A stretch of DNA of 25,275 bases from a virus, in the IMG/VR virus record IMGVR_UViG_3300006876_000005, positions 1 to 25,275 of that record. One strand, given 5' to 3'. Positions 3,282 to 25,275 of the stretch are shown here, piece by piece. The position numbers and the translations under genes are program-made. The notes below the pieces were generated by a model. The model had not been told where the DNA came from, did not search any database, and was given only the letters and a program-made list of their open reading frames with translations. The stretch's first letter is position 1; the number at the start of each line of letters is the position of its first letter.

Positions 3282-3788
3282 TCAACTCTCAATACCGGGA
3301 CGTTCCGGGAATTTCCCGCCCATCGACGCATGTCGGGACGAAAGCTCACGCCCGACCTCAGCCAGCGCGGTGCGCAACTCCACCGTGGCCGCTGCCCACT
3401 GCTCATCCGTCAATTCGGCCGCCTGTAGGGCCCTCTGGAGGACTGCGGCGATCATCCGCGCCTCAGCCTGCACCGACTCGATGTAACGCTCTGAGAGGCC
3501 CGCTGAGACGGCCGCACGGGCCACCTGTGCCCCATGGGCCCGCTCCTCGCGTCCGAGCCGGACCCACTCCCTCAGCTCGCGTCCCGCACGGCTTCGCGCA
3601 ATCTCGAACTTCTCGGGTTCCCAGTCGTGTTCTTGCGCCTCCAGTTCGGCTTCGCGTTGGATCTCTTTCCCGATCCGCTCTTCAAGCCACAAGATCCGGT
3701 ACCCCGATCGCCGGACCTCCGACAGGATCGCGTCCCATGGCGCAACGTCGACCTCGCCGTCATGCGGAATCTGCTTTTTCGTGTCCAT
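3282..3788 (-). CDS. Helical protein of unknown function (DNA-packaging-like resemblance)
   Basis: A 168-residue, mostly helical, charged protein. It opens with a segment of the type PWDAILSEVRRSGYRILWLE, continues with a long charged helix, then a helix-turn-helix-like stretch (VARAAVSAGLSERYIESVQA) and an Ala-rich helical end (MIAAVLQRALQAAELTDEQW). This overall pattern reminds me of a common actinophage/Streptomyces family that sometimes lies beside terminase genes, but this is memory of style, not a match I can prove, and no terminase is here. The ATG at 3788 has AGGAG eight bases upstream. It lies at the left end of the leftward block, immediately beyond the repeat array, so it could be an array-binding protein. 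Confidence 0.7.
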   Translation of the reverse strand: MDTKKQIPHDGEVDVAPWDAILSEVRRSGYRILWLEERIGKEIQREAELEAQEHDWEPEKFEIARSRAGRELREWVRLGREERAHGAQVARAAVSAGLSERYIESVQAEARMIAAVLQRALQAAELTDEQWAAATVELRTALAEVGRELSSRHASMGGKFPERPGIES

Positions 3789-3811
3789 CAGTGTTTCTCC
3801 TGGTCAGCTAG

Positions 3812-4320
3812 GGGGTGGACTTAGCCGCAAGCCTCTGACCTGCGGGGGGGACTTAGGGGTGGACTTAGCACTTCCGATTTCACCCCCATCTACCTGCGAA
3901 AACTCGCCTGGGGTGGACTTGGGGGACTTAAAACGCGGTGTCGCTCCCTATACAAACACAAACAGTAATATATTACTGTTTTTCTCGTATGTAAGTATCT
4001 CCTCTTTAAGTCTACCCAAGTCTACCTGTTTTTAGAGTTTTTACTGGTAAGAGAGTCGGCAAGCCTTTTCCATCGGGGTGGACTTGCCGTGGTCAGGACC
4101 CCTTTACAAGTCCACCCCAAGTGTTTTTCCAACCCCCTAAGTCCACCCAAGGCTACCCTAATAATACGTACAGCTATCAATCTCTCACCCTAAGATACGT
4201 GCATACATCGATACATATCAGCGCCGAAGCCAAAAGGGGTGGACTTAGACGGCTTGGCGAGGCGCTAAGTCCACCCCAGAGACCACCTAAGTCCACCCCC
4301 ATTTGCGTTAAGTCCCCCTA
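3812..4320. repeat. Array of GGGGTGGACTTAG repeats: candidate replication origin
   Basis: This gene-free tract holds about 14 full or near copies of a 13-bp motif. Forward GGGGTGGACTTAG: 3812-3824, 3856-3868, 4236-4248, with near copies at 3845-3856, 3910-3922, 3921-3930 and 4075-4087. Reverse CTAAGTCCACCCC: 4265-4277, 4287-4299, with near copies at 4008-4017, 4018-4026, 4108-4118, 4137-4148 and 4308-4320. Copies 4236-4248 and 4265-4277 form a perfect inverted repeat. The middle (about 3945-4040 and 4125-4235) is far more AT-rich than the rest of the window. Repeats plus an AT-rich zone beside Prim-Pol and ATPase genes is the classic layout of an iteron origin. An operator cluster is the main alternative. 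Confidence 0.75.
3960..3981. repeat. 22-bp perfect AT-rich palindrome
   Basis: AACAGTAATATATTACTGTT (3961-3980) is a perfect palindrome, extended by one A:T pair on each side. It lies in the AT-rich centre of the repeat array and is the most likely melting or initiator-binding site within it. Confidence 0.75.
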
Positions 4321-5940
4321 ACGCAGAGTGTGCACAGTCCAGAATTGGACACCTTTCCGCTTCCCTTCTTTGACCACCTGCACATCACCGAACCACCTCC
4401 GGTTGCGGTTCCCGAGGAACCTTCCGGCAGTCATGGAGAAAGACCCCGTGGCGAACCCTGTCCACTTGGCCGCCAGCGCGGAGGGCATGACCTCTTCCAG
4501 TCCCGGAACCATGTTGAGCGCGTTACCCAGATCTTTCGTGTTCCATTCGGCTTGACCGAAGTGCGCCTTCACCGCGTGGAGGAACGAGCACCACTCGTCA
4601 TCCTCATCCGACATGACCGGTCTGACGGCCTTCGCGTCGAACTCCTCGCCGAGTCCGGCGTGCTGCAAGATCCCTGACAGCATCTGCCGCCACAGCGCAT
4701 ACGAGTCCGATCCTGTGGCCGGTGGCATCTGCGCCCCCGCGTATAGCCATGAACGGATCACGGTCATGAGCGCCGACAGGTACTCGCCCCGGTGGTCTCC
4801 CATCCACTTGACGGGGTTGGCGATGTCGAACCCGGTCCGGTTCTCGGGGTCGGGACCGGCATCGAGCCGAACTTTGAGCACACGCCGCGCCATGTCGCCC
4901 CCGATGGACGCATTGTTCCCAGTCAGAATCCACAGCCGGTCGTTCGCGATCGTGGCCTCAGTGTTCCCACCGAGCAACCGGTCGGACCATGTTTCGGCCG
5001 TGAGCAGCGCTTCGAGGGACGGCGAGGAGATCATGCCTTTGACGTTGTCGAACACGATGATCCCTTCGGCGCCCAGCAGGGCCGTGGTGATGGTCTTGCG
5101 CATCTCGGCTTCTTTGTCCGGCAGCGCACCGCGCAGGGTGCCCCCGTGGAGCTTGCGGAGCATCCCGGCGAGGTAGCCCTTGCCGGACCCCGGTTGGTGC
5201 GCCTCAATGATGCCCAATTTGTACGGCCCTGGGGCCAAATAGCGCAGTAGCGGCGTAAACGCCATACCGATCCAATTGGCTTTATCCGCTTCGGTTTCGA
5301 ACGGGAACTGCGCCACGGGGTACTTGATGAGGGTCGCGGCCTCGAACATGGCTTGCCGCGAAGGCTCTTCGGGGACCGAGATCTTGAGGCCGTCGCCGGG
5401 CTGGTACAGCATCTGTGTGACTTCGTCGTAGCCTTCGCGGTCGATGAGATCGCCATCGCCACGGAACAGCGGAATCGAGGTGATACCTGCCAGCTCCCGT
5501 GCGTTCGCGAGCCGGTGCACCGCGCCGCACGCGTTCTCAGCAGCGATCAGCGGAAAGTTGGTGTCGCGCACGCCTTTGTCTGTGTGGCGGATGGAGCGGA
5601 ACGTGTAGTCGATCTCCGCGCGCAGCCTTCGGGCGTCAAGCGGCTGGATAGCGCCTGGGATGACCCGAACCAGCTCCCCGCGACGCTTGTACATGTGGTC
5701 CAATTCGCCGACGCCGATCCTCCTGGACAACCACAGGTGCAGCGAGCTGGGCTCGGTGGCGTCGCAGACGGGACGGTCGATGTCCTCGGCCGACGAGTCA
5801 TTCACACCGTCTGGGACCACCGGTTGTTCATCGTTTGCGCCGCTGTCACCGTTGAAGTCCATGTTTTCGAGCATGGCTTTCGCCCAGTCATCCGATGATC
5901 CTGTGGCGTTCGCGTTGTTTGCGGCGTCTGTGTCGGTCAT
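4318..5940 (-). CDS. P-loop ATPase, likely replicative helicase-type partner of Prim-Pol
   Basis: A 540-residue protein likely to act in replication initiation. The first ~60 residues are acidic and probably disordered. A central ATPase domain has a Walker A-like HQPGSGKGYLAGML (about residue 260), a Walker B-like GIIVFDNV (about 310), a sensor-like LWILTGNNASIGGD and an arginine-finger-like MARRVLKVRLD. This order fits the AAA+/SF3-like helicases paired with Prim-Pol in actinomycete plasmids and phages. The ATG at 5940 is preferred because AGGTGA lies nine bases upstream; a GTG at 5952 is possible. The stop codon overlaps the last repeat of the origin-like array, so the gene reads straight into it. 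The precise helicase family is not certain. Confidence 0.8.
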   Translation of the reverse strand: MTDTDAANNANATGSSDDWAKAMLENMDFNGDSGANDEQPVVPDGVNDSSAEDIDRPVCDATEPSSLHLWLSRRIGVGELDHMYKRRGELVRVIPGAIQPLDARRLRAEIDYTFRSIRHTDKGVRDTNFPLIAAENACGAVHRLANARELAGITSIPLFRGDGDLIDREGYDEVTQMLYQPGDGLKISVPEEPSRQAMFEAATLIKYPVAQFPFETEADKANWIGMAFTPLLRYLAPGPYKLGIIEAHQPGSGKGYLAGMLRKLHGGTLRGALPDKEAEMRKTITTALLGAEGIIVFDNVKGMISSPSLEALLTAETWSDRLLGGNTEATIANDRLWILTGNNASIGGDMARRVLKVRLDAGPDPENRTGFDIANPVKWMGDHRGEYLSALMTVIRSWLYAGAQMPPATGSDSYALWRQMLSGILQHAGLGEEFDAKAVRPVMSDEDDEWCSFLHAVKAHFGQAEWNTKDLGNALNMVPGLEEVMPSALAAKWTGFATGSFSMTAGRFLGNRNRRWFGDVQVVKEGKRKGVQFWTVHTLR

Positions 5941-5999
5941 GGTAGTGTTCACCTGCCTTATCTGATCTATGCTGTTGCGCAGCGGCTTGAAGGGCGCAA

Positions 6000-7398: not shown

Positions 7399-7407
7399 AT
7401 TCTATCA
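7399..7407 (-). promoter_or_regulatory. Extended -10 promoter overlapping the Prim-Pol stop codon
   Basis: On the minus strand TGA-TAGAAT (7407-7399) is a near-ideal extended -10. Its TGA is also the stop codon of the Prim-Pol gene, so the promoter of the micro-gene operon is built on that stop. No clear -35 is needed or seen. Confidence 0.65.
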
Positions 7408-8283
7408 CACCCCGCTCGCTTGCCTACCCGCCTCCCACCCGCTTTCAAACGTCCTACGTTGGGATGACTCATCGTCGTTCGCCCCGATCGAGAACATCAC
7501 GGTCCGAAGCTCCGACCACGCCTCCTCGGCACCCATGGTGCCCATTTTCCCGAGCCGGAACGCGGCCACGTTCAGCTCGTTGTTGCGGGTCCCCGGTGCC
7601 GCGTTCCCGAGCCGGTCAAGCACGCGCTCGGCCTCGCGTTCGGCCTGCGCACTGCCAGGTTCGTACTGCGGTTCCGACCGCTCTCCGCGCTCCGGTTTGC
7701 GCGTGAGCTTCACGAGCCAATCGGGAGCCGGGACGATAACAGTACTCCGAATACCGCCCCTGGGAACCACTTGGTAGCCGCCGCAGCCGGGAGCTTTCAC
7801 CAGGCCCCCGATACCGCGCACGTCGATGCCGGGACCGAGGAGGCCGGACGAGTTGTGCACGCCTTTTTGGCGCAAGACCGTTTCGTCCCACCGGAAGTAG
7901 AGGTGTGCCCCCCCGGAGGGCGTGGCGACGGTCATCGTGCCGGTGAAGTCGGCAAGAGTGCTGCCGTGCTGCACCGCGAGGTCACGCAGGGAGGCGAAAC
8001 CGTCGATACCGTTCTTTCGGTCCAGGTCCAGCACCCAGATGCTCGAACTGGGACCCGTGGCGATGCCCACGGGATATCCGGTGAACTCTCCACCGGCCCA
8101 CCAGGCGTGAACCTGGTCGACTTCGCGCGTTGCCAGCCGCTTCCAGTCTTTGACCGCTGGTCGCTTCGTGCCGTTCATCAAGGGAAACACGCGGAACCCG
8201 AGCTGCACGCAGGCGTACGCGACCGCTCCCGTGCTGGGGGCCTGTCCGCCTGCGGCGGTGTCTTCGAAACGGGTGGTTGCCAT
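7405..8283 (-). CDS. Bifunctional DNA primase-polymerase (Prim-Pol)
   Basis: Makes primers and can extend them at the origin. The 292-residue product has the Prim-Pol N-terminal fold: GFRVFPLMNGTKRP (about residues 30-43), the catalytic acidic motif WVLDLDRKNGIDG (about 83-95), TPSGGAHLYF (about 121-130) and GIDVRGIGGLVKAPG (about 151-165). This matches the Prim-Pol domain at the N-terminus of many plasmid and phage primases; here it stands alone, with the helicase-like ATPase encoded separately downstream. Residues 200-292 form a helical tail. The ATG at 8283 follows the box GATGAGAGGATGAAGG. It is the first gene of the leftward replication block, divergent from the gene at 8404. Confidence 0.93.
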   Translation of the reverse strand: MATTRFEDTAAGGQAPSTGAVAYACVQLGFRVFPLMNGTKRPAVKDWKRLATREVDQVHAWWAGGEFTGYPVGIATGPSSSIWVLDLDRKNGIDGFASLRDLAVQHGSTLADFTGTMTVATPSGGAHLYFRWDETVLRQKGVHNSSGLLGPGIDVRGIGGLVKAPGCGGYQVVPRGGIRSTVIVPAPDWLVKLTRKPERGERSEPQYEPGSAQAEREAERVLDRLGNAAPGTRNNELNVAAFRLGKMGTMGAEEAWSELRTVMFSIGANDDESSQRRTFESGWEAGRQASGV

Positions 8284-12249: not shown

Positions 12250-12396
12250 ATGCCTACCCAGCGTAGAGGCAGCAAAATCCACCGCGCCAACGGCCCGTAC
12301 TGGCCGCTGGGTTTCATCGGTGGCGAGTACTGCGTGAAGTGCGGGCAAGACTGGCCATGCAAGCCTGAGCAGGACAAGAGGTCTCGGAATGCTTGA
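12250..12396 (+). CDS. 48-residue Cys-containing micro-protein
   Basis: The product is MPTQRRGSKIHRANGPYW followed by PLGFIGGEYCVKCGQDWP and a basic tail. The C-x2-C in YCVKCGQ, with a later Cys (WPCKP) and a His upstream, may form a small zinc site. The ATG at 12250 follows the GATGAGAGGATCAAAGAC leader. Its end overlaps the DNA polymerase start by eight bases, so it lies in the polymerase transcript and may be translationally coupled to it. Confidence 0.68.
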   Translation: MPTQRRGSKIHRANGPYWPLGFIGGEYCVKCGQDWPCKPEQDKRSRNA

Positions 12397-14200
12397 GGGG
12401 GTCCAACTCCACCTGGTCGAGACGATCGAGGACGTGAACGCTTGCCTTGACTGGCTTTCGGGGCTAACCTGCGACCGTATCGGCTTCGACTGCGAGACCA
12501 CAGGACTTGACAAGATCCACGACAGGCCACGCCTAGTGCAATTCGGCGACCGGTTCCAGGGATGGGCCATCCCCGTTGACCGCTGGTACGGACTGATTCA
12601 GGAGATTGTGTCGCGATGGTCGCGCATGGGCCGCTTCGTGGGCCACAACTCCTGGTTCGATGTGCGCCACCTGGCGAACATCGGTATCACCGTTCCCGCA
12701 CACCTGGTGGACGATACGATGCCGCTCGCACACATCGCCGACTCAACGGTTTCGATCGGGCTCAAGCAGCAGTGCGCCAAGCACATCGACGCACGCGCCG
12801 CTGCGATGCAGTCGCAGCTTGACCAGGTCATGCACTCCGGTGGCTACACGTGGCGAACGATCCCGATCACGGCCACCGGTCCGTGCGCCGTGTACTGGGT
12901 GTACGGGGCTCTTGACCCTGTGTTGACCGTCCGGCTGTGGGAGCACCACGCGCCGAACGTCCTGCCTACCGCCTCTAAGGCGTACGACATTGAGGTAGCT
13001 ACGGGGAACCTGACTGACCGCATGGAAGTGAAGGGAGTTGCTTGCGACCGCGAATACACGCAGGAACGCCGCAACGAGCTGACGCGACTGCACGACGACC
13101 TCACCAGGCGCGGACATGACGAGTTCGGGGTGAATCTCGGTTCGTCACAACAGGTCATTGACAGGCTCATCGAGGATGAGGTGCCACTCTGGAAGCGGAC
13201 CGATGGCGGGGCATGGTCGCTGGACAAGTTCGCACTTGAGGGCATCGACCACCCGTTGGTGCAGTTGTTGCAGTACCGTTCGAAGGCCGAGAAAATCAAC
13301 TCTGTGTATCTGAAACGATTCTTGCAGTACTCGGAGTACGACGGCCGTATCCACCCTTCGATTAACCCGCTCGGGTTCAATGAGCAGAAGGCGGGGGCGT
13401 TCGGTGTCAAGACGTCGCGCATGTCGATGAGCGAGCCGAACTTGCAGCAACTCACACGCGTCAACGCCGATGACCCGTTGAGCATGATAGCGCGCAACTG
13501 CATCGTTGCCTCACCTGGTCACACGCTGTTGCTGTTCGATTTCGACCAGATCGAAATGCGCATCATGACGCACCTCTCGAAAGATCCCGGGCTGTATGAG
13601 GCGTTCGCGTCGGATGAAGACTTCTTCGTGACGCTCACGCGGAAGGTGTATCAGGACGAGACGATCACGAAAAAGGACCCGAGGAGAAACGTTACGAAGT
13701 CGTACGGTTACGCCACGATCTACGGTTCGGGAAATGACACCCTCGCGACCACGACGAAACGACCGCTCGCCGAAATCGAGCAGCTGTCACGAGACTTCGC
13801 GAACAGCTACCCCGGTGTGCCCGCCTTCCAGAATGCTATTCAGCAGGTTGCCAGGCAGCGGTACAGAGATGAAGGGGTTGGATACGTGATCTCACCGCTT
13901 ACCGGACGCCGGTCGCTGTGCCACAATCCGAACCTTATGTATCAGCTGGTCAACCACCAAATCCAAAAGATGGCGGCGGAGATCATGAAGATGAAGCTCC
14001 TGGAACTCGACGCCGCAGGGCTCGGCGATTACCTCGCACTGGTCGTGCACGATGAGGCTATCGCTGATGTACCGGACGATGAGGTTCAGGATGCGATCGC
14101 GACCATGCAAGACGTGATGAACGACGACAGCCTGTTGTCTCTGCCGCTCACTGCGGGTGGGGCGACAGCTAAGCGCTGGGCGATGAAGTCCGAGTTGTGA
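12389..14200 (+). CDS. polA: DNA polymerase I (family A) with 3'-5' exonuclease
   Basis: Replicates the element's DNA. The 603-residue protein has a 3'-5' exonuclease domain (Exo I DCETTGLD at about residue 34, Exo II VGHNSWFDVRHL at about 84, Exo III YGALDP at about 173) and a family A polymerase domain: motif A FDFDQIEMR (about 385), motif B RRNVTKSYGYATIYG (about 432) and motif C VVHDEA (about 552). There is no 5' nuclease domain, which is usual for phage pol I proteins. Motif A reads D-F-D-Q instead of the D-Y-S-Q of bacterial Pol I. The ATG at 12389 overlaps the previous gene and has AGAGG upstream. HNH endonuclease genes lie on both sides. Confidence 0.96.
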   Translation: MLEGVQLHLVETIEDVNACLDWLSGLTCDRIGFDCETTGLDKIHDRPRLVQFGDRFQGWAIPVDRWYGLIQEIVSRWSRMGRFVGHNSWFDVRHLANIGITVPAHLVDDTMPLAHIADSTVSIGLKQQCAKHIDARAAAMQSQLDQVMHSGGYTWRTIPITATGPCAVYWVYGALDPVLTVRLWEHHAPNVLPTASKAYDIEVATGNLTDRMEVKGVACDREYTQERRNELTRLHDDLTRRGHDEFGVNLGSSQQVIDRLIEDEVPLWKRTDGGAWSLDKFALEGIDHPLVQLLQYRSKAEKINSVYLKRFLQYSEYDGRIHPSINPLGFNEQKAGAFGVKTSRMSMSEPNLQQLTRVNADDPLSMIARNCIVASPGHTLLLFDFDQIEMRIMTHLSKDPGLYEAFASDEDFFVTLTRKVYQDETITKKDPRRNVTKSYGYATIYGSGNDTLATTTKRPLAEIEQLSRDFANSYPGVPAFQNAIQQVARQRYRDEGVGYVISPLTGRRSLCHNPNLMYQLVNHQIQKMAAEIMKMKLLELDAAGLGDYLALVVHDEAIADVPDDEVQDAIATMQDVMNDDSLLSLPLTAGGATAKRWAMKSEL

Positions 14201-15300: not shown

Positions 15301-17211
15301 ATGAATGAGATCTATGCCGAGCTGGGCGAAGACGACCGGATTACCCTGTTCAGTCGCAAGGCGAACGGTGAGCACGACGAAACGCTCTGGAATGACTCGT
15401 ATCAGATCAAGATGATCCCAGGCAAGAAGTGGGACCGCAAGGCGAAGCGCTGGACGCTCCCGAAGTCCTACGCGGCGTGCATCGTGCTGCGAGAACTATT
15501 CGGCGATCGGATCGTGGTCGAACCCGAGCTTGCCGCTTGGGCCCGTTCGGAGCGTGCACGGCGTGACGAAGTGCTGTCACTGCGTGAAGCATTGTCGATT
15601 GACGGTACCTCCGAGTTCGCCAACGACCACGATGCCGACCTGTTCCCGTTTCAGATTCCAGGGCGTGACTTTCTGGTCAAAGCACGCCTAGTGCTGCTCG
15701 GTGACCATATGGGTACGGGCAAGACTTTTCAGACCCTTGCGGGTATTCGAGCAGTTGACAGCATCGGAGACGCATACCCCGCACTAGTCGTCTGCCCCAA
15801 CTCCCTGAAACGGAACTGGGAACGCGAGATCAAGCGGTGGCTGCCCGAGGCGAACCCGTTCGTGATCCAGGGAAGCGCCGCGAAGCGCCGCGTGCAGATC
15901 ACCGAAGCGGCTGAGACTGACAACGCGATCATCATCGTGAACATTGAAGCGATGAAAATACACTCCCGTCTGTCCCCGTACGGTTCGACGCGCCTGAAAC
16001 GCTGCATGGAGTGCGAGACGAAGACGCAACCCGGCACGCCGGACCTGAAAGAGTCCGCCTGCGAGGTGCACGAGAAGGAACTCAACCGCATCCCGTTCCG
16101 GGTGTGTGTGCTCGATGAGGCGCACCGGGTCAAAGATCCGAACGCCATGCAGACGCGCGCTATCTGGAACGTGTTTCACGGGCCTACGGTCGAATACCGC
16201 TGGGCGCTCACGGGAACGCCTGTGGCGAACCACCCCGGTGACCTGTGGAGCATCATGCACGCGGTTGACCCGCTCACGTGGCCTGCGAAGTCGGCCTTCA
16301 TCGACCGGTACGCGCAGCTTGAATACAGCCATTTCGGGCCTATGCAAATTGTGGGCTTGAACCAGGAGCACAAAGAGGAGTTCTTCAAAATCCTTGACCC
16401 GCACTTCCGGCGAATGATCAAGGCGGATGTCCTCAAGCAGTTGCCTGACAAGGTGTTCATGCGACGTGATGTCGAGATGAGCCCCAAGCAGGCGAAGGCA
16501 TACAAGGACATTGCCGAGCAACTGGTGACCGTACTGGAAGACGGAACGGTCCTCGTCGCCAACGGGAACCTTGCAGGGGCCACCCGGTTGCTGCAATTCG
16601 CTTCCGCCTACTGCGAGGTTGACCATGGGGAAACTCCTGATGACCCCGCCACGTGGCTTGTGTCGCTTACCGACAGCCCGAAGTCCTCGAAGATCGATGA
16701 ACTCATGTCGATTATCGAAGACAACCCGGGCAAGCCGCTCGTGATCGCCGCTGAACACCGGCAACTGATCGACCTGGCAGCAGCCCGTATGACCGACGCT
16801 GGTATCCCGTTCGCTCGGGTGACCGGAGGAATTTCGGCTGATGAGCGGGACGCTGCGGTTCAGGCGTTCCAGGACGGCAAGATTGACTACATCCTGTTCA
16901 CCTACAAAGCCGGTGGGGTCGGTCTCAACCTCACGCGCGCTGACACCATGGTGCGCCTCCAGAGAAGTTGGAGCCTCATCGACAATAACCAGGGTGTCGA
17001 CCGTATCCACCGGATCGGATCCGAGGTGCATGAAAAGGTGACCATCATTGACCTCGTAGCCGCTGACACGATCGAAGAAACGCAGCTCGAAAGGCTGTAT
17101 GAGAAGGCCGAACGACTGGAGGAGATCGTGCGTGACCGCGCTAAGCTCGTCGCGCTCGGCAAGACCACCGATGATCTGGACGCGGAAGCGTCCAAGATCG
17201 AAGCAACCTGA
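15301..17211 (+). CDS. SNF2-family DNA helicase/translocase
   Basis: A 636-residue ATP-driven DNA translocase. Residues 1-110 form an N-terminal domain (KKWDRKAKRWTLP...) resembling the HARP-like region of SMARCAL1-type annealing helicases. Then the SF2 motifs: Walker A GDHMGTGKTFQ (about 136), VCVLDEAHRVKD (DEAH, about 272), LTGTPVANHPGDLWS (motif III), and near the C-terminus AGGVGLNLTRAD and NNQGVDRIHRIGS (motifs V and VI). A cysteine insert C-x2-C-x(n)-C-x2-H (about 237-259) sits between the helicase motifs and could hold zinc. The ATG at 15301 follows GAAGGATGAAGG. Fork regression or annealing at replication forks is the likely job. Confidence 0.93.
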   Translation: MNEIYAELGEDDRITLFSRKANGEHDETLWNDSYQIKMIPGKKWDRKAKRWTLPKSYAACIVLRELFGDRIVVEPELAAWARSERARRDEVLSLREALSIDGTSEFANDHDADLFPFQIPGRDFLVKARLVLLGDHMGTGKTFQTLAGIRAVDSIGDAYPALVVCPNSLKRNWEREIKRWLPEANPFVIQGSAAKRRVQITEAAETDNAIIIVNIEAMKIHSRLSPYGSTRLKRCMECETKTQPGTPDLKESACEVHEKELNRIPFRVCVLDEAHRVKDPNAMQTRAIWNVFHGPTVEYRWALTGTPVANHPGDLWSIMHAVDPLTWPAKSAFIDRYAQLEYSHFGPMQIVGLNQEHKEEFFKILDPHFRRMIKADVLKQLPDKVFMRRDVEMSPKQAKAYKDIAEQLVTVLEDGTVLVANGNLAGATRLLQFASAYCEVDHGETPDDPATWLVSLTDSPKSSKIDELMSIIEDNPGKPLVIAAEHRQLIDLAAARMTDAGIPFARVTGGISADERDAAVQAFQDGKIDYILFTYKAGGVGLNLTRADTMVRLQRSWSLIDNNQGVDRIHRIGSEVHEKVTIIDLVAADTIEETQLERLYEKAERLEEIVRDRAKLVALGKTTDDLDAEASKIEAT

Positions 17212-17222
17212 TTGATGGGAGC

Positions 17223-17396
17223 ATGATGCCGCCAAGCATGAGATATGACGACCCCAAGGCAACACCCGAGTACATCGCCAAAGAGAAGAAACGCAAGCGC
17301 ATCGCGAACCTGAAAGTGTTCGTGGAGCGATGGTCGCCTAGGTTCGAGGCCGAAGTGAGAGAGGAGAGGGAACATGAGGCGATTCAGCCAGAGTGA
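17223..17396 (+). CDS. 57-residue charged protein bridging helicase and nuclease genes
   Basis: The product is MMPPSMRYDDPKATPEYIAK, then a Lys/Arg-rich helix (EKKRKRIANLKVFVERWSPR) and a Glu-rich end (FEAEVREEREHEA). Starts at 17223, 17226 or 17238 are all possible; GGGAG fits 17226 best. It overlaps the nuclease start by 23 bases, so the two are likely coupled. A helical adaptor role is only a guess. Support comes mainly from its position in a gap that would otherwise be 160 bases. Confidence 0.5.
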   Translation: MMPPSMRYDDPKATPEYIAKEKKRKRIANLKVFVERWSPRFEAEVREEREHEAIQPE

Positions 17397-18345
17397 GTTT
17401 AAGACGTTCGCCTGTGCCAGACGTTGGTGGTTGAGTGACTACCGCAGGCTGGCACCGGCTTCGTTCAACCCTTCCGGTCCGCTCAAGTCCGGTAGCCGAG
17501 TGCACACCGCATTGGAGGTTTTCTACGGTCCCGAACCTGAGACGTATCTCGACGTTCTCAAAGCCGCACAGGATGCCGACTGGCAGGCGTATCTGGAGAA
17601 CTGCACCGAACTGGGTGTGTACCCCGATGTCGAAGTGTCGAAGGCGTTCGAGAAAGACTGCGAGCTGGAACGCGCGATGCTGGAAGGCTATGCCGGTTGG
17701 ATTGCCGAATCAGGGGTTGACGCCGGTATCGAGTTCACCGCGATTGAGGAGATCGTTTCGGTTCGCGGCTCTGACTTCGCGCCTGAGATCGTGGAGCGGT
17801 TTGGAGAGTTCGAAGTCGTTGGCAAGCTGGACGCTCGCGTGCTCAGGCTCATGGACGGCGCGCGGAAGTTCGTTGACCACAAGACGGCTGCGAGCCTGAC
17901 CTCAGCACTTGCGACGCTGCACATGAACTCGCAGATGCTGCACTACGCGTGGCTTGAGCGCATGACGCAACCGACAGGCACGTGGAGTGACGGTGCGTTG
18001 TACAACGTGCTCAAGAAGGTCAAGCGCGGCAAGCAGGCGAAACCGCCGTTCTATGACCGGTTCGAGGTCAACCACAACGACGACCAGATCGTGTCCTACG
18101 AGCTGCATATGAAGCGCAAGATCACGAAGATATTCGAGCTTGAGGCGTTGCTCAAAGACGCTACGGTCGAAGAGCAGGCGCACATTGCCGAGCCGAGCCC
18201 GGACGACTCATGTTCTTGGAAGTGCCAGTTCTTCACACTGTGCCCGATGTTCGATGACGGCTCCCGTGCGGAGGACATGGTACGCGAGGAGTTCACCGAG
18301 CGTGACCCACTTGCCAGGTATGCGGAAGGTGTCAACAATGCGTGA
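17374..18345 (+). CDS. Cas4/RecB-like PD-(D/E)XK nuclease with Fe-S-type cysteines
   Basis: A 323-residue DNA nuclease of the RecB/Cas4 group. It begins FSQSEFKTFACARRWW with a Cys (about residue 11), has GSRVHTALEVFYG (about 43-55), the catalytic GKLDARVLRL...FVDHKTA (Asp and Asp-x-Lys, about 150-171), and ends with CSWKCQFFTLC (about 283-293). One N-terminal and three C-terminal cysteines are the pattern that holds a 4Fe-4S cluster in AddB and Cas4. In phages such proteins make 3' overhangs for recombination. It overlaps the preceding micro-gene and the next gene. GAGAGGAGAGGGAAC is just before the ATG. Confidence 0.92.
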   Translation: MRRFSQSEFKTFACARRWWLSDYRRLAPASFNPSGPLKSGSRVHTALEVFYGPEPETYLDVLKAAQDADWQAYLENCTELGVYPDVEVSKAFEKDCELERAMLEGYAGWIAESGVDAGIEFTAIEEIVSVRGSDFAPEIVERFGEFEVVGKLDARVLRLMDGARKFVDHKTAASLTSALATLHMNSQMLHYAWLERMTQPTGTWSDGALYNVLKKVKRGKQAKPPFYDRFEVNHNDDQIVSYELHMKRKITKIFELEALLKDATVEEQAHIAEPSPDDSCSWKCQFFTLCPMFDDGSRAEDMVREEFTERDPLARYAEGVNNA

Positions 18346-18618: not shown

Positions 18619-19413
18619 ATGACACAAGACCGAAACCCGCGCCACAACGCGACGTTTTTGGTGTATGCCGAAACCAAGCGCGGGAAGTCGACGCTTGGTG
18701 CGAGCTGCCCAGGGCCGGTGCTCGCACTCGACGCGGAAGGAAGCTGGAACGCGTTCGAGGGGCGTAAGAACCCGAACAACCCTGACCAGCCCTACCGCGT
18801 CGTGTGGTGGGACCCGAAGGAAGCACCACCGAAGGCGGACGGGACCTGGGATATCTGCGTGGTCGACGTGCTTCGATGGGAGACCGTTGAACAGGTGATC
18901 GGCTGGACTATCCAGCCCGACCACCCGTTCCAGTCGATCGTGGTCGACTCGGTGACGCAGCTCCAGAAACGATGCAAGGAAGCGCTGCCCGGTTTCCAGT
19001 CCGGTAACCAGCAGTACTCTGACTGGGGCCAGCTCTTGACCCGCATGTCCGAGAAGGTGCAGCGGTTCCGGGACATGGTGAAGGACGTGCGCAACCCATT
19101 CCGGGTAGCGGTGTTCACGGCCGAGGGTGACCTTCGCGCGGACGGGAAGTACGTTCCTAACATGGAAGGCGCGCTGCGCAAGGGCATCGCCTATTGGATG
19201 AACACCACAGCGTGCCTCACGGTCAAGCAGGTGCCGAACGCGGATGGGATCATCGCCGCTGACAGCCCGCTGGTTCGCTCGCTCATGGTGAAGCCGAACC
19301 CGAACTACATCACCGGTTCGCACTTCGAGGACCGATTCACCACCAACTCCATTGAAAACCCCAACATCACCGAGATGATGGGCCAGATCTTCCCCGGCTT
19401 CAAGTCGGAGTAA
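18619..19413 (+). CDS. Sak4-like RecA-type ATPase (single-strand annealing/recombination)
   Basis: A 264-residue RecA-core ATPase. The Walker A-like AETKRGKSTLG (about residues 16-26; Ala replaces the first Gly), LALDAEGSWNAFEG, the Walker B-like SIVVDSVTQLQKR (about 110-122) and the beta-strand VFTAEGDLRADGKYVPNM follow the pattern of the phage Sak4/AAA_24 family, which binds ssDNA and pairs with an ssDNA-binding protein. Here the DUF669-like gene follows after ten bases, which is a recurring pairing in actinophages. The ATG at 18619 follows AAGGGAAAGGATGCA. It has its own promoter. Confidence 0.85.
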   Translation: MTQDRNPRHNATFLVYAETKRGKSTLGASCPGPVLALDAEGSWNAFEGRKNPNNPDQPYRVVWWDPKEAPPKADGTWDICVVDVLRWETVEQVIGWTIQPDHPFQSIVVDSVTQLQKRCKEALPGFQSGNQQYSDWGQLLTRMSEKVQRFRDMVKDVRNPFRVAVFTAEGDLRADGKYVPNMEGALRKGIAYWMNTTACLTVKQVPNADGIIAADSPLVRSLMVKPNPNYITGSHFEDRFTTNSIENPNITEMMGQIFPGFKSE

Positions 19414-19423
19414 GGAACACATC

Positions 19424-19966
19424 ATGACTACTGTCCCGTGGGATGTCCTGGTCGCCAAGGCCAAGGAGAACGGACACACCGAGGTCGCCCCGGTGGGCGT
19501 ATACCAATGCCGTATCGAGTCGGCCGAAGCCGGGGAGAACCAGAACGGTAACGCTTTCATCGAGACGCGTCTCAAGATCACCGAGGGCGAACACGCCGGT
19601 AAGCGTCCTACGACGTTTTACCACAAGATCTACCAGACCGAAAAGACCGTGAACATCTTCATGCAGAACATGAAGGCGTTCGGCATCACGGACGAAACTG
19701 TTCTGCAGCAGCGGCCCACCCTTGACCAGGTGGCGCGGGCGATCATCGGCAAGACGGTGACTGTCAAGACCAAAGTTGCCACGGACAACCGGAAGAACAA
19801 CGAGGTCAAGATGGATCGCGAGGGCAACCCCCAGGTTGAAGTGAACTGGTCTTTCAGCGCTCCGCGTGACGGCGCTATCGCGGTGACCGAGTTCCCGCCC
19901 GTTGGCGGTGGCCACGTCGGCACTAACGCCAGTACGCACGCCGGTGCGATCGACCCCGGTTTCTAA
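19424..19966 (+). CDS. DUF669-like ssDNA-binding protein
   Basis: A 180-residue protein likely to coat single-stranded DNA. The beta-rich central part (APVGVYQCRIESAEAGENQN, then AFIETRLKITEGEHAGKRPT and KTVTVKTKVATDNRK) has the OB-fold look of DUF669/phage SSB-like proteins, which replace bacterial Ssb in many actinophages. The C-terminus is Gly-rich and less acidic than that of typical Ssb. It follows the Sak4-like gene after ten bases, and the pair probably works together in annealing and recombination. A terminator follows seven bases after the stop. Confidence 0.83.
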   Translation: MTTVPWDVLVAKAKENGHTEVAPVGVYQCRIESAEAGENQNGNAFIETRLKITEGEHAGKRPTTFYHKIYQTEKTVNIFMQNMKAFGITDETVLQQRPTLDQVARAIIGKTVTVKTKVATDNRKNNEVKMDREGNPQVEVNWSFSAPRDGAIAVTEFPPVGGGHVGTNASTHAGAIDPGF

Positions 19967-20833: not shown

Positions 20834-20909
20834 AGCGCGGTAGAGGAGCTCGGTTGTCCTCGCAGCCCTCATAAGGCTGAGATCGTGAGTTCAAATCTCA
20901 CTCGCGCGA
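20834..20909 (+). tRNA. tRNA-Met (CAU), initiator-like
   Basis: All arms fold: acceptor (2-7 with 66-71), D stem GAGG/CCTC, anticodon stem CAGCC/GGCTG with loop CTCATAA (anticodon CAT), and T stem GTGAG/CTCAC with loop TTCAAAT. The body is close to actinobacterial initiator tRNA. Two initiator hallmarks are present: the pair A11-T24, and no Watson-Crick pair at 1-72 (A opposite G). The third, three G-C pairs at the bottom of the anticodon stem in GGG/CCC order, is not kept. No CCA is encoded. An elongator Met or a modified Ile (CAU) tRNA cannot be excluded. Confidence 0.8.
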
Positions 20910-21023
20910 CGGTGTGTTTAGTCCGTACACCACAAGTCGACAGCGCTTGACCAGCGTCACGGACTCAGGTTCGGTCGGGTAGCTCCCGACGCGGGCACAA
21001 AGGCCCCGAGTGGTTTCGGGGTA
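20910..21023 (+). other. Structured spacer in the tRNA cluster, no gene
   Basis: No coding sequence or tRNA is supported. It holds an inverted repeat AGTCCGT/ACGGACT (20920-20926, 20959-20965), a hairpin GTCGGG-TAGCT-CCCGAC (20974-20990) and a hairpin CCCCGA...TCGGGG (21004-21021) ending two bases before the next tRNA. These may guide tRNA processing or be the remains of a tRNA. Confidence 0.4.
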
Positions 21024-21095
21024 GTGCTGTTAGCTCAGTCTGGCAGAGTAGCAGGGTCAAACCTGTGGTCCGGGGTTCGAATCCCCGACAGCACT
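21024..21095 (+). tRNA. tRNA with a 6-nt anticodon loop (identity unclear)
   Basis: The acceptor (GTGCTGT/ACAGCAC), D arm (GCTC/GAGT) and T arm (CGGGG-TTCGAAT-CCCCG) are all standard. The anticodon arm is GCAGG-GTCAAA-CCTGT: the stem is sound but the loop has six bases instead of seven. If T in GTCAAA is position 33 the anticodon is CAA, but the long variable arm of Leu tRNA is missing. If a T is missing, it would be UCA, reading UGA. The discriminator base is T. No CCA is encoded. Confidence 0.65.
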
Positions 21096-21304
21096 CGAAT
21101 GCGGTACCGGCTTCGAAACGGGGCACGGACATAGACGAACTTGCTGAAAACGTCGTGTCAGTGTTTGCAGCTTCTGAAGGGACCTCGGAAGCGTTACCTT
21201 CCGGGGTGTGGGCGACGATCGTAACGGGTCGGGTGTTCACCAAAATAGGGGGACTCGGATGGAGATCCGTAGTCTTAAACGACATCTGGTCATGTGCCCC
21301 GCTA
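21096..21304 (+). other. Spacer between tRNAs, no gene seen
   Basis: This 209-base stretch has no tRNA I can fold and no convincing gene. An open frame runs through it, but it continues across the adjacent tRNAs and has no ribosome site, so I take it as chance. A small hairpin CGGAT-GGAG-ATCCG lies near 21257-21270. Confidence 0.4.
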
Positions 21305-21377
21305 GCACCGTTAGCTCAGTGGAACGAGCGGCTGTCTTACAAACAGCGGGTCGGGGGTTCGACTCCCTCACGGTGTA
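21305..21377 (+). tRNA. tRNA-Val (UAC)
   Basis: A complete cloverleaf: acceptor GCACCGT/ACGGTGT (one G-T pair), D stem GCTC/GAGC, anticodon arm GCTGT-CTTACAA-ACAGC with anticodon TAC, variable GGGTC, and T arm GGGGG-TTCGACT-CCCTC with one G-T pair. Discriminator A suits Val. It reads GUA, a codon that is uncommon in G+C-rich genomes. No CCA is encoded. Three bases separate it from the next tRNA-like gene. Confidence 0.85.
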
Positions 21378-21380
21378 CGA

Positions 21381-23020: not shown

Positions 23021-23458
23021 ATGATCGAAACCGCTATTGACCAGACCGCTGGTGGCCTCGCTATCGCGTTTTTCGCGCTGGCGTGGTGGACGAATCGCAA
23101 GGGCTCAAGCAAGATCGCAGGTATCACGGCTGTCATCTTCGCAATCATCGGATCGGGGCTGCTGTATGCGGCTCCGTGGTCGCTAGGGATGGCTAACCTC
23201 ACGGCTTCGGTGCTCGGCATGTTCGGGAATGTCCCCGTGCACCCGATAATGACGATCATCTGCTTTGCGCTGATGCTGGGCGTTATCTACGACCTGTACG
23301 ACGACCCCACGTACAACGCCGGGGCCGTGTGGGCCCTGATCTTCGCGCCGATCATGGCGCGCGGTGCTGCCGGTTCGGTCGGATCGTTCCTTGAGCAGCT
23401 GTTCGGGGGGGCGTCCATGGCGTTTCTCGAAGCTGTGAAGCAGATGTTCGGTGCTTGA
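23021..23458 (+). CDS. Small multi-span membrane protein (transfer/spread-like)
   Basis: A 145-residue integral membrane protein with four hydrophobic spans (about residues 10-24, 30-55, 68-90 and 97-120) and short loops; the last part (FLEQLFGGASMAFLEAVKQM) is amphipathic. Small membrane proteins of this shape lie beside traB in Streptomyces plasmids, where Spd proteins help plasmid spread between mycelial compartments. I can claim only the general shape, not homology. The ATG at 23021 follows GATGAGAGGACGAATTC. The next gene starts two bases after its stop, so they form one unit with the translocase. Confidence 0.72.
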   Translation: MIETAIDQTAGGLAIAFFALAWWTNRKGSSKIAGITAVIFAIIGSGLLYAAPWSLGMANLTASVLGMFGNVPVHPIMTIICFALMLGVIYDLYDDPTYNAGAVWALIFAPIMARGAAGSVGSFLEQLFGGASMAFLEAVKQMFGA

Positions 23459-23459
23459 C

Positions 23460-25275
23460 ATGACCGACAACAACACGCGCGCATTGACGCGCACGGCGCG
23501 CGCCTCGTGGGGTTACACCCTGCGCGGCGCGCGCGCGCTCATGAATGACGCCGCGCATTGGGCGCGCGCGGAGGGTATTGAGGCGCACATCCGGGAGCGC
23601 GATGCGCGCGCACTCAGCGCGCAGCACCAACGGGCGATGCGCGCGCACGCGCGCACTCCCAAGAACCGACGCGCGCACACTCCTCCCCCTGCGCGCGCGC
23701 ACGCGATCACGGACATTGAGGTGAATGCGCGCGCGTTCGGTACGCGCGCGTTTCGATGCGCGATCACGCTCGCAGTTCCCGCGTGCGCGCTCATCGTTCC
23801 CCCATGGATGCTCATCGAAGGCAGTCCCGGTGCGCTCCTCATGTGGCCTGCCGCGTACGGGTACCTGGCGTGGAATGGGTGGATGCACCGCACCGAGGAT
23901 GTTATCGAAGACGACAACGACGACGAGACCCAAACCCCTGACACCACCGTTGCGCTCCCAGCGGCGTCGATCTTCGTTCCACGGCGGGGCACGGGGCTCG
24001 CACCTACGGCACAGGAATCAGCGATCATCGACCGTATCCACAATTGGGAGTCCAGCGCGGCCGAGCGCAAGCTCACCGAGGTTATCCCCGGTGCGCCCAC
24101 CATTGATGAGTCCGGCATTCTCATTCCCGTGACGTTTGCTGGCACGTGGACGCCCGCCCGTCTCGACGCCAATGCAGATCAAGTGCGCGCACTGCTCGCG
24201 ATCCCTGATGAGGTGCGCACTGAGATCAAACCAGGAGGTACCGCAGACCGGTCAGTGATCCGCGTGCGTACCCGCATCCGTGAACTTGACCTGCGCTGGA
24301 CACCCGAGCGCGAAGGCATCGGCCTCAATGCCGACACAGGCGAAGTGGTCGACGTTGACGATGACGACCGAGTTCTCACCGCTGGTATCACGGGTGCGGG
24401 CAAGTCAGTAGCGTTGCGCGTGCTCATGGCGAAGGCGCTCAAGCGACCGCACACAGCGCTGGTCATTCTCGACGTGAAGACGGACGGGGCGCTGTGGTCG
24501 CACGTGGCACGCGTCGAACACGAGCCGGAAGGGATGCAAAGTGTTGTCGATGACCTGATCACAGAGATGAAAGAACGTGAGACGATCATGCGTGCGAACA
24601 ACCTGGACAAGTGGGAACCCACGGCTGAACGCCCACGCATCGTCGTCGTTGTCGATGAGGGTGCCGAATTCATGCTCAGCGCGCCTGACGCTGTGGAAGG
24701 CACACGTTCACTCGCCATGCGCGCACGGTCGACGGCGATCATCCTCAAGTGGGCCACGCAGAAACCCACGAAGACCGGACCAGGCAAGGGACTCGATTCC
24801 GCTACATCGGGAATGCTCGGCACCAAAATCTGTATGGCCGTGGCATCGCAGATGGAGACGAGAACCGTCCTCGGGGAGGAGGCAACCGGGGAGGGCTGGC
24901 ACGCGGAAAACCTCCCTAAAGGCGGCTGGGCGCTTATCCAGGTGCAGGGTGAGGACCGGAAACCCGATCCCGTGCGGTTCTGGTTCATGACGAAAGAAGA
25001 CGTGAAGGCCCTGGAGCCGCGTTCGCCGTGGCGTAGGGCTAAGTCGAATCCCCCGGTGGTCGACGCGAAAGACGCCCTCGTGACTGCTCTTGAGCTGTCT
25101 GAGGGGCTGAACGGAGTGTCAACGGTCCGGCTCGCTATCGCGCTTGGGATCGCTGACACCGAGGTGCACGTGCGTATGCGCGTGCACGGGGTGACTCCCG
25201 AGCCGAACGCCTTTGCCATGGGCAACGGTGAGAAGGCACGAGGATACCGCAGAGATAAGCTTGAGGCTGCGTTCA
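23460..25275 (+). CDS. FtsK/SpoIIIE/TraB-type DNA translocase (runs off the window)
   Basis: At least 605 residues, open at the right edge. Residues 1-100 are an Ala/Arg segment rich in GCGCGC codons, then a membrane part at about 100-145 (ALIVPPWMLIEG, LLMWPAAYGYLAW), an acidic linker, and a motor domain: Walker A GITGAGKS (309-316), LVILDVKTDGALW, Walker B RIVVVVDEGAEF (D399), STAIILKWATQKP, MAVASQMETRTVLG and ALIQVQGEDRKPD. The C-terminal part (VRLAIALGIADTEVHVRMRV) resembles the winged-helix DNA-recognition domain of TraB/FtsK. Such motors pump double-stranded DNA through a membrane pore, in division or in conjugation. The gene follows a membrane-protein gene by two bases, as in plasmid transfer operons. 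Confidence 0.9.
   Translation, partial: MTDNNTRALTRTARASWGYTLRGARALMNDAAHWARAEGIEAHIRERDARALSAQHQRAMRAHARTPKNRRAHTPPPARAHAITDIEVNARAFGTRAFRCAITLAVPACALIVPPWMLIEGSPGALLMWPAAYGYLAWNGWMHRTEDVIEDDNDDETQTPDTTVALPAASIFVPRRGTGLAPTAQESAIIDRIHNWESSAAERKLTEVIPGAPTIDESGILIPVTFAGTWTPARLDANADQVRALLAIPDEVRTEIKPGGTADRSVIRVRTRIRELDLRWTPEREGIGLNADTGEVVDVDDDDRVLTAGITGAGKSVALRVLMAKALKRPHTALVILDVKTDGALWSHVARVEHEPEGMQSVVDDLITEMKERETIMRANNLDKWEPTAERPRIVVVVDEGAEFMLSAPDAVEGTRSLAMRARSTAIILKWATQKPTKTGPGKGLDSATSGMLGTKICMAVASQMETRTVLGEEATGEGWHAENLPKGGWALIQVQGEDRKPDPVRFWFMTKEDVKALEPRSPWRRAKSNPPVVDAKDALVTALELSEGLNGVSTVRLAIALGIADTEVHVRMRVHGVTPEPNAFAMGNGEKARGYRRDKLEAAF

Follow-up and report, generated by a model that had tools for sequence, protein, structure and literature searches.

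A two-way iteron array next to a RepA-type helicase gene, the most likely replication origin of a tailed actinobacterial phage

The window, i.e. the whole stretch of DNA analysed here, is a 25,275-base record from a virus collection. It carries a repeat array between the stop codon of a 544-aa ATPase gene (rep) and the start of a 168-aa gene, with a Prim-Pol gene located 1.5 kb upstream of rep on the same strand. The features of the locus are the following.

3282..3788, minus strand: 168-aa all-helical protein, phrog_3678 (function unknown), start codon 24 bp from the array
3802-3806 and 4091-4095, minus strand: shorter TGACC matches
3812..4320, both strands: two-way iteron array, 14 copies (10-bp cores), based on repeat counts
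3813-3822, 3845-3854, 3857-3866, 3911-3920, 3920-3929, 4076-4085, 4237-4246, plus strand: iteron cores
4008-4017, 4018-4027, 4108-4117, 4139-4148, 4267-4276, 4289-4298, 4310-4319, minus strand: iteron cores
3833..3844, plus strand: putative second origin element, box CTCTGACCTGCG, with core CTGACCTG at 3835-3842
3940..4059: AT-rich centre (60-67% AT in 60-bp windows), candidate unwinding element
3961..3980: perfect 20-bp palindrome AACAGTAATATATTACTGTT, with an exact match also in the L006 contig
4037..4071, minus strand: 35-bp non-repeat block GGAAAAGGCTTGCCGACTCTCTTACCAGTAAAAAC, identical in L006
4236..4277: perfect 13-bp inverted pair of the word (4236-4248/4265-4277), arms 16 bp apart
4318..5952, minus strand: Rep, SF3/D5-like ATPase of 544 aa, homologue of pWTY27 RepA; proposed initiator and helicase
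4327..4608, minus strand: Rep residues 449-542, winged-helix-like topology, proposed reader of the iteron word (model and covariation)
7405..8283, minus strand: Prim-Pol (PF09250, E 1.5e-27), proposed primer-making partner, cf. pWTY27 RepB

The 14 GACTT-centred copies, seven per strand, filled positions 3812-4320 around the AT-rich centre, and neighbouring copies on the same strand were commonly spaced by 8-13 bp. Nine of the 14 had the exact GGGTGGACTT core (3813, 3857, 3911, 4076, 4108, 4139, 4237, 4267 and 4289), and five were exact copies of the 13-mer (3812, 3856 and 4236 on the plus strand, 4265 and 4287 on the minus strand), the others having one to three mismatches. Every match to the 13-mer with up to two mismatches in the window fell within 3812-4299; with up to three mismatches, 15 matches were counted, compared to 5.3 expected and a maximum of 11 in 100 shuffles. 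The 10-mer AAGTCCACCC occurred nine times in 510 bp (maximum of two in 500 shuffles). The AT content reached 0.60-0.67 at the array centre (60-bp windows starting at 3940-4000) against about 0.40 in the whole window, and only mechanical ORFs were present in 3789-4317. The original prediction, which described a gene-free tract with about 14 repeats in both orientations, a perfect 13-bp inverted pair and a central AT-rich zone, was borne out on these points. It also reported a repeat over the ATPase stop codon, which is there but degenerate (4310-4319, two mismatches to the 10-bp core), and placed the array beside both the ATPase and Prim-Pol genes, which holds for the former but not for the latter, located 3 kb away.

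The rep gene reaches 5952 with an upstream GTG start. Its product shared 33% identity with pWTY27 RepA over 400 aa (residues 142-543, E 9e-56). No family was assigned to it by Pfam or NCBIfam, and no Rep_3 or similar initiator domain was found in this protein, which lacks a Pfam match; a profile search of PDB chains, including SaPI5 Rep (7ola), gave no relevant Rep match at E-values up to 1. In a Foldseek search with the AlphaFold model (pLDDT 82.7), the top PDB matches were SF3/D5-family helicases, with modest TM-scores (0.35-0.5); the NrS-1 C-terminal region (E 2e-9), the SaPI5 primase-helicase (7ola, E 7e-8), PriRep1 with dsDNA (7pds) and poxvirus D5/E5 were matched. In that model, the C-terminal domain has helices and then a beta hairpin, an arrangement resembling the topology of a winged helix.

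Plasmid pWTY27 of Streptomyces sp. Y27 (NC_013667.2) has two-way GTGGGAAC iterons in a 300-bp region directly 3' of repA, RepA binds them in EMSA and footprint assays, and replication, which is bidirectional, needs repA, repB (Prim-Pol) and the 300-bp tract (PMC3583192). In the plasmid sequence itself, the iterons were located immediately after the repA stop codon, with a single word present on both strands. The window resembles it in having a homologous RepA, a Prim-Pol partner, two-way iterons 3' of the rep stop codon and a CTGACCTG box, which forms an inverted pair in pWTY27. However, pWTY27 has GTGGGAAC as its word, a Prim-Pol gene directly adjoining repA, a less AT-rich centre and no 168-aa gene, and it is a plasmid, not a tailed phage.

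The homology and identical layout in pWTY27, together with arrays at the equivalent place in dozens of relatives (see below), make the reading of the array as a replication origin well supported by comparative sequence analysis, in agreement with the original prediction. Most likely, the array serves a tailed soil phage as its replication origin; the relatives of this phage suggest an actinobacterial host. Very probably it is a theta-type oriV at which the adjoining Rep binds the iterons via its C-terminal domain. Either the ATPase or the 168-aa protein had been proposed as initiator; the former, as a homologue of pWTY27 RepA, was retained, and the latter was not retained as word reader.

Other replication systems share parts of this arrangement. 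The Rep of staphylococcal SaPI elements reads iterons directly downstream of its own gene with its C-terminal domain, and SaPI Rep/ori and SCCmec Cch2 (PDB 7ola, 7pds) also have an SF3/D5-type core, an array directly downstream of the helicase gene and a C-terminal domain that binds dsDNA there and is predicted to do so here; the match to the window Rep is at the fold level only, and these are staphylococcal satellites or cassettes (PMC7581432). AICE RepPP (SCO4618-like) modules, e.g. SLP1, are similar by description: in these mobile elements of actinobacteria, a separate replication gene comes after the Prim-Pol gene; one AICE has a reported D5-type protein, and the accessible part of that source describes no origin for RepPP modules (PMC3218068). 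In the PLE satellites of Vibrio cholerae, the origin and the DNA-binding domain of RepA vary together, with specificity demonstrated by swaps, but that RepA_N domain is N-terminal, the initiator is unrelated and the three iterons are about 30 bp long (PMC8263062).

The 450 bp located 3' of the rep stop codon were scanned for arrays in 47 actinobacterial genome loci, 39 viral loci and several plasmids. One dominant word on both strands, usually in 5-14 copies (shuffle maximum 3-4; 2-4 copies in control stretches of the scanned loci), was present in most phages and, with few exceptions, at the RepA-family loci of actinobacterial genomes and plasmids. Within these 450 bp, no clear array was detected for the phage RepA relatives L089, L090, L091, L120 and L121; degenerate arrays were missed because the scoring used exact 8-mers. 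Pas55 of phiAsp2, which has the homologous domain within a longer protein, was discarded, with no array directly 3' of its gene.

Related genomes had an array at the same place, but the word itself differed by lineage. In L006, the closest relative (Rep 86% identical), the tract could be aligned and kept the array, the palindrome and the landmarks, but GTAGACTT stood in place of the window's GTGGACTT in most of the homologous copies, a change made in register; the GTAG form was kept by two central copies of the window. The array word, at the same place, was TGCAGGGGTAGA in L008, GCGG(A/T)GTT in L009, CTTGCAGGGAT in L010-L013 and TGTCCGGGAT in L015, in phages whose 168-aa proteins are 63-97% identical to that of the window. 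It was TGTCCGGG in L035 and, less clearly, GTTACA in L033 (seven copies of the 6-mer, shuffle maximum 5). Close phages differ by concerted turnover of the word (GGGGTGGACTTAG, GGGTAGACTTGG, TGCAGGGGTAGA, CTTGCAGGGAT, TGTCCGGGAT), a new observation in which all window relatives with changed words come from the viral collection. Among them, the L008 contig (G002) encodes a terminase large subunit and portal/head, tape measure and tail-fibre proteins, with matches to PHROG terminase, portal and tail families; the TerL family PF03354 gave no match in the relatives. The original prediction did not recognise the word from described iterons, rightly so, but this is less significant than it looks because every lineage has its own word. 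A literature search for the string CAGGTCAG with search terms gave no match, which is a weak test of novelty.

Rep itself changed unevenly. Between the window and L008, which differ in their words, residues 51-450 were 72-82% identical and residues 451-544 only 34-40%, whereas pWTY27 and L018, with the common word GTGGGAAC, had Rep C-termini 76-84% identical. Across 59 Reps, the core-corrected identity of residues 450-544 was correlated with word similarity (r = 0.33, permutation p = 0.0005), although partial Mantel tests can be too liberal under shared ancestry, so that this significance may be overstated. Covariation was highest in this segment, with weaker signals at 200-250 and 350-400. 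Between the Reps of the window and L006, SFSMTAGRFLGNRN/SFAMTLGRYLGYKD differ within identical flanks, in a stretch modelled as the helix before the hairpin. Word similarity thus appears to track the C-terminal 95 residues better than other Rep segments, a new result suggesting that this DNA-binding tail is apparently rewritten along with the word in relatives.

The helicase gene was also exchanged. The slot between Prim-Pol and the array is filled by a RepA-type Rep in the window, L006, L008 and L009, and by P4/D5-type helicases in L010-L013, L015, L033 and L035, each helicase type having its own array. Sequence similarity to the window Rep was not detectable for the L011, L013 and L015 helicases. 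In the phages with P4/D5-type helicases, Prim-Pol was 53-77% and the 168-aa protein 63-77% identical to those of the window. Closely related phages, with 168-aa neighbours at this level of identity, have either this Rep or a P4/D5-type helicase in one slot. This finding, also new here, recalls staphylococcal cassettes with their two unrelated helicases, Cch and Cch2 (PMC7581432).

One element was constant across arrays with different words. The octamer CTGACCTG, first noticed by eye in the initial locus set, was found in 14 of 41 non-redundant array regions, compared to 0.6 expected and a maximum of two in 40 shuffles, bearing in mind that array regions from separate clusters may nonetheless be related by descent and that sequence collections are incomplete. 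Its density was 1.03 per kb in arrays and 0.09 per kb in the flanks of those loci, and it was present in 8 of about 30 clusters outside the set where it was first noticed. It often forms an inverted pair (pWTY27, L018, L046) and also occurs in L016, L060 and others, whose words differ, while the related octamers CTGGCCTG and CTGAGCTG were found in some arrays lacking it. As the box accompanies both RepA-type and D5-type helicases, its reader is probably not Rep. It is unmentioned in the accessible part of the pWTY27 paper (PMC3583192) and is apparently undescribed.

Other explanations of the array were considered. The least improbable, though still an unlikely one, is an operator or partition array with sites for a repressor or a centromere-binding protein, the origin lying elsewhere. 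Lying upstream of the 168-aa gene, the array may regulate that gene as well; centromeres can consist of clustered two-way repeats; and in L019 a ParA gene is present further downstream. Cluster A mycobacteriophages have stoperators, a 13-bp asymmetric word in many copies in the phage. Stoperators are dispersed, however, whereas the near-exact copies of the window all lie in one 510-bp tract, the word being limited to the array tract in G001 and G002 as well; dozens of elements with differing downstream genes also have their array 3' of the replication helicase, and the homologous pWTY27 tract is needed for replication (PMC3583192). That the array is an origin but with the 168-aa protein as its iteron-binding initiator is very improbable. 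This gene adjoins arrays of different words in the phage relatives covered, and its start codon is close to the array. Yet the protein is 97% identical between the window and L008 while their array words are entirely different, and a search of 72,556 plasmid records gave no homologue, though plasmids with this replicon have the array; because of these two results, it is not taken as the word reader. Its AlphaFold model is all-helical, with nothing below E 0.4 in a fold search of the PDB, and no array was found near gp82 of Arthrobacter phage Kukla, a distant homologue.

Two further readings carry a negligible probability. A DnaA-box cluster, read by host DnaA, is evoked by the reverse word CTAAGTCCACCCC, which by eye has GTCCAC in common with the DnaA box consensus, TTGTCCACA. 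Three of nine positions differ, however, homologous array words are unlike DnaA boxes (GTAGACTT, TGCAGGGATA, TGTCCGGGAT, AAACCCGG), and word similarity tracks the C-terminal domain of each element's own Rep. An equally remote reading is a pac/cos packaging site, with the terminase small subunit, possibly the 168-aa protein, as reader: the latter is all-helical and phage-specific as far as searched, and the L012 contig starts inside the array, but the terminase large subunit gene of G002 (L215:3345-5075, about 43.3-45.1 kb) lies about 9 kb from the array, and homologous arrays also occur on plasmids and in actinobacterial genome loci.

Under the preferred reading, a replication origin read by Rep, a working model was drawn from the SF3/D5 fold matches and the SaPI Rep precedent. 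Rep would bind the iterons through its C-terminal domain, and since copies of either orientation flank the AT-rich centre, often spaced by roughly one helical turn, two opposed Rep oligomers might form, melt the centre and self-load as helicases in both directions. Primers made by Prim-Pol would then be extended by the phage DNA polymerase A (12389-14200). The word and the Rep C-terminal domain would co-evolve, while the CTGACCTG element keeps its sequence and is probably read by a non-Rep factor (Prim-Pol or a host protein). The origin would thus be of an ordinary kind with an unusual modular evolution. More tentatively, and with considerable doubt, actinobacterial phages and plasmids might share a modular system in which a conserved frame (AT-rich centre, CTGACCTG box with a Rep-independent reader, perhaps Prim-Pol) receives unrelated helicases, each with an iteron word brought along or evolved through its C-terminal domain. 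All copies would be rewritten rapidly and in concert, perhaps under pressure from incompatibility or from defence that targets origins.

The recognition code relating a helicase's C-terminal domain to its DNA word could be studied on these dozens of origins, a natural data set in which the neighbours are known and the words differ. They also open to direct testing a question that has long been puzzling for iteron origins, namely how an initiator changes in step with the more than ten copies of its site. Incompatibility groups of plasmids and phages in Streptomyces and its relatives could be predictable from the words, and the CTGACCTG box provides a concrete second element.

GC skew, proposed as a check of the origin, pointed away from the array in the window, with a cumulative minimum at about 8.5-9.0 kb, at the transcription divergence. 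In the 60-kb relative G002, the cumulative skew was low near the array (about 54 kb) and also at 58 kb, so that it does not discriminate. With minima at or near transcription divergence, it was dropped as an origin marker.

Elsewhere in the window, genes at 12389-14200, 15301-17211, 17374-18345 and 18619-19966, encoding DNA polymerase A, an SNF2 helicase, a PD-(D/E)XK nuclease, an AAA_24 ATPase and a DUF669 protein, form a separate elongation/recombination set. Genes for a tRNA-Met (20834-20910), a tRNA-like sequence with an ambiguous anticodon (21024-21096) and a tRNA-Val(tac) (21305-21378) were also found. An FtsK/TraB-like DNA translocase gene is located at 23451-25274 (open at its end) and, in a relative, at L213:15102-16952, where it matched the NCBIfam plasmid_TraB (E 3e-15, below the curated cut-off) and PHROG FtsK/SpoIIIE-like (E 9e-56) families. 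Such translocases occur in Streptomyces conjugative plasmids and here in a tailed phage; considered along with the plasmid-type origin, this is suggestive of a phage-plasmid, or of a phage with an acquired plasmid transfer module.
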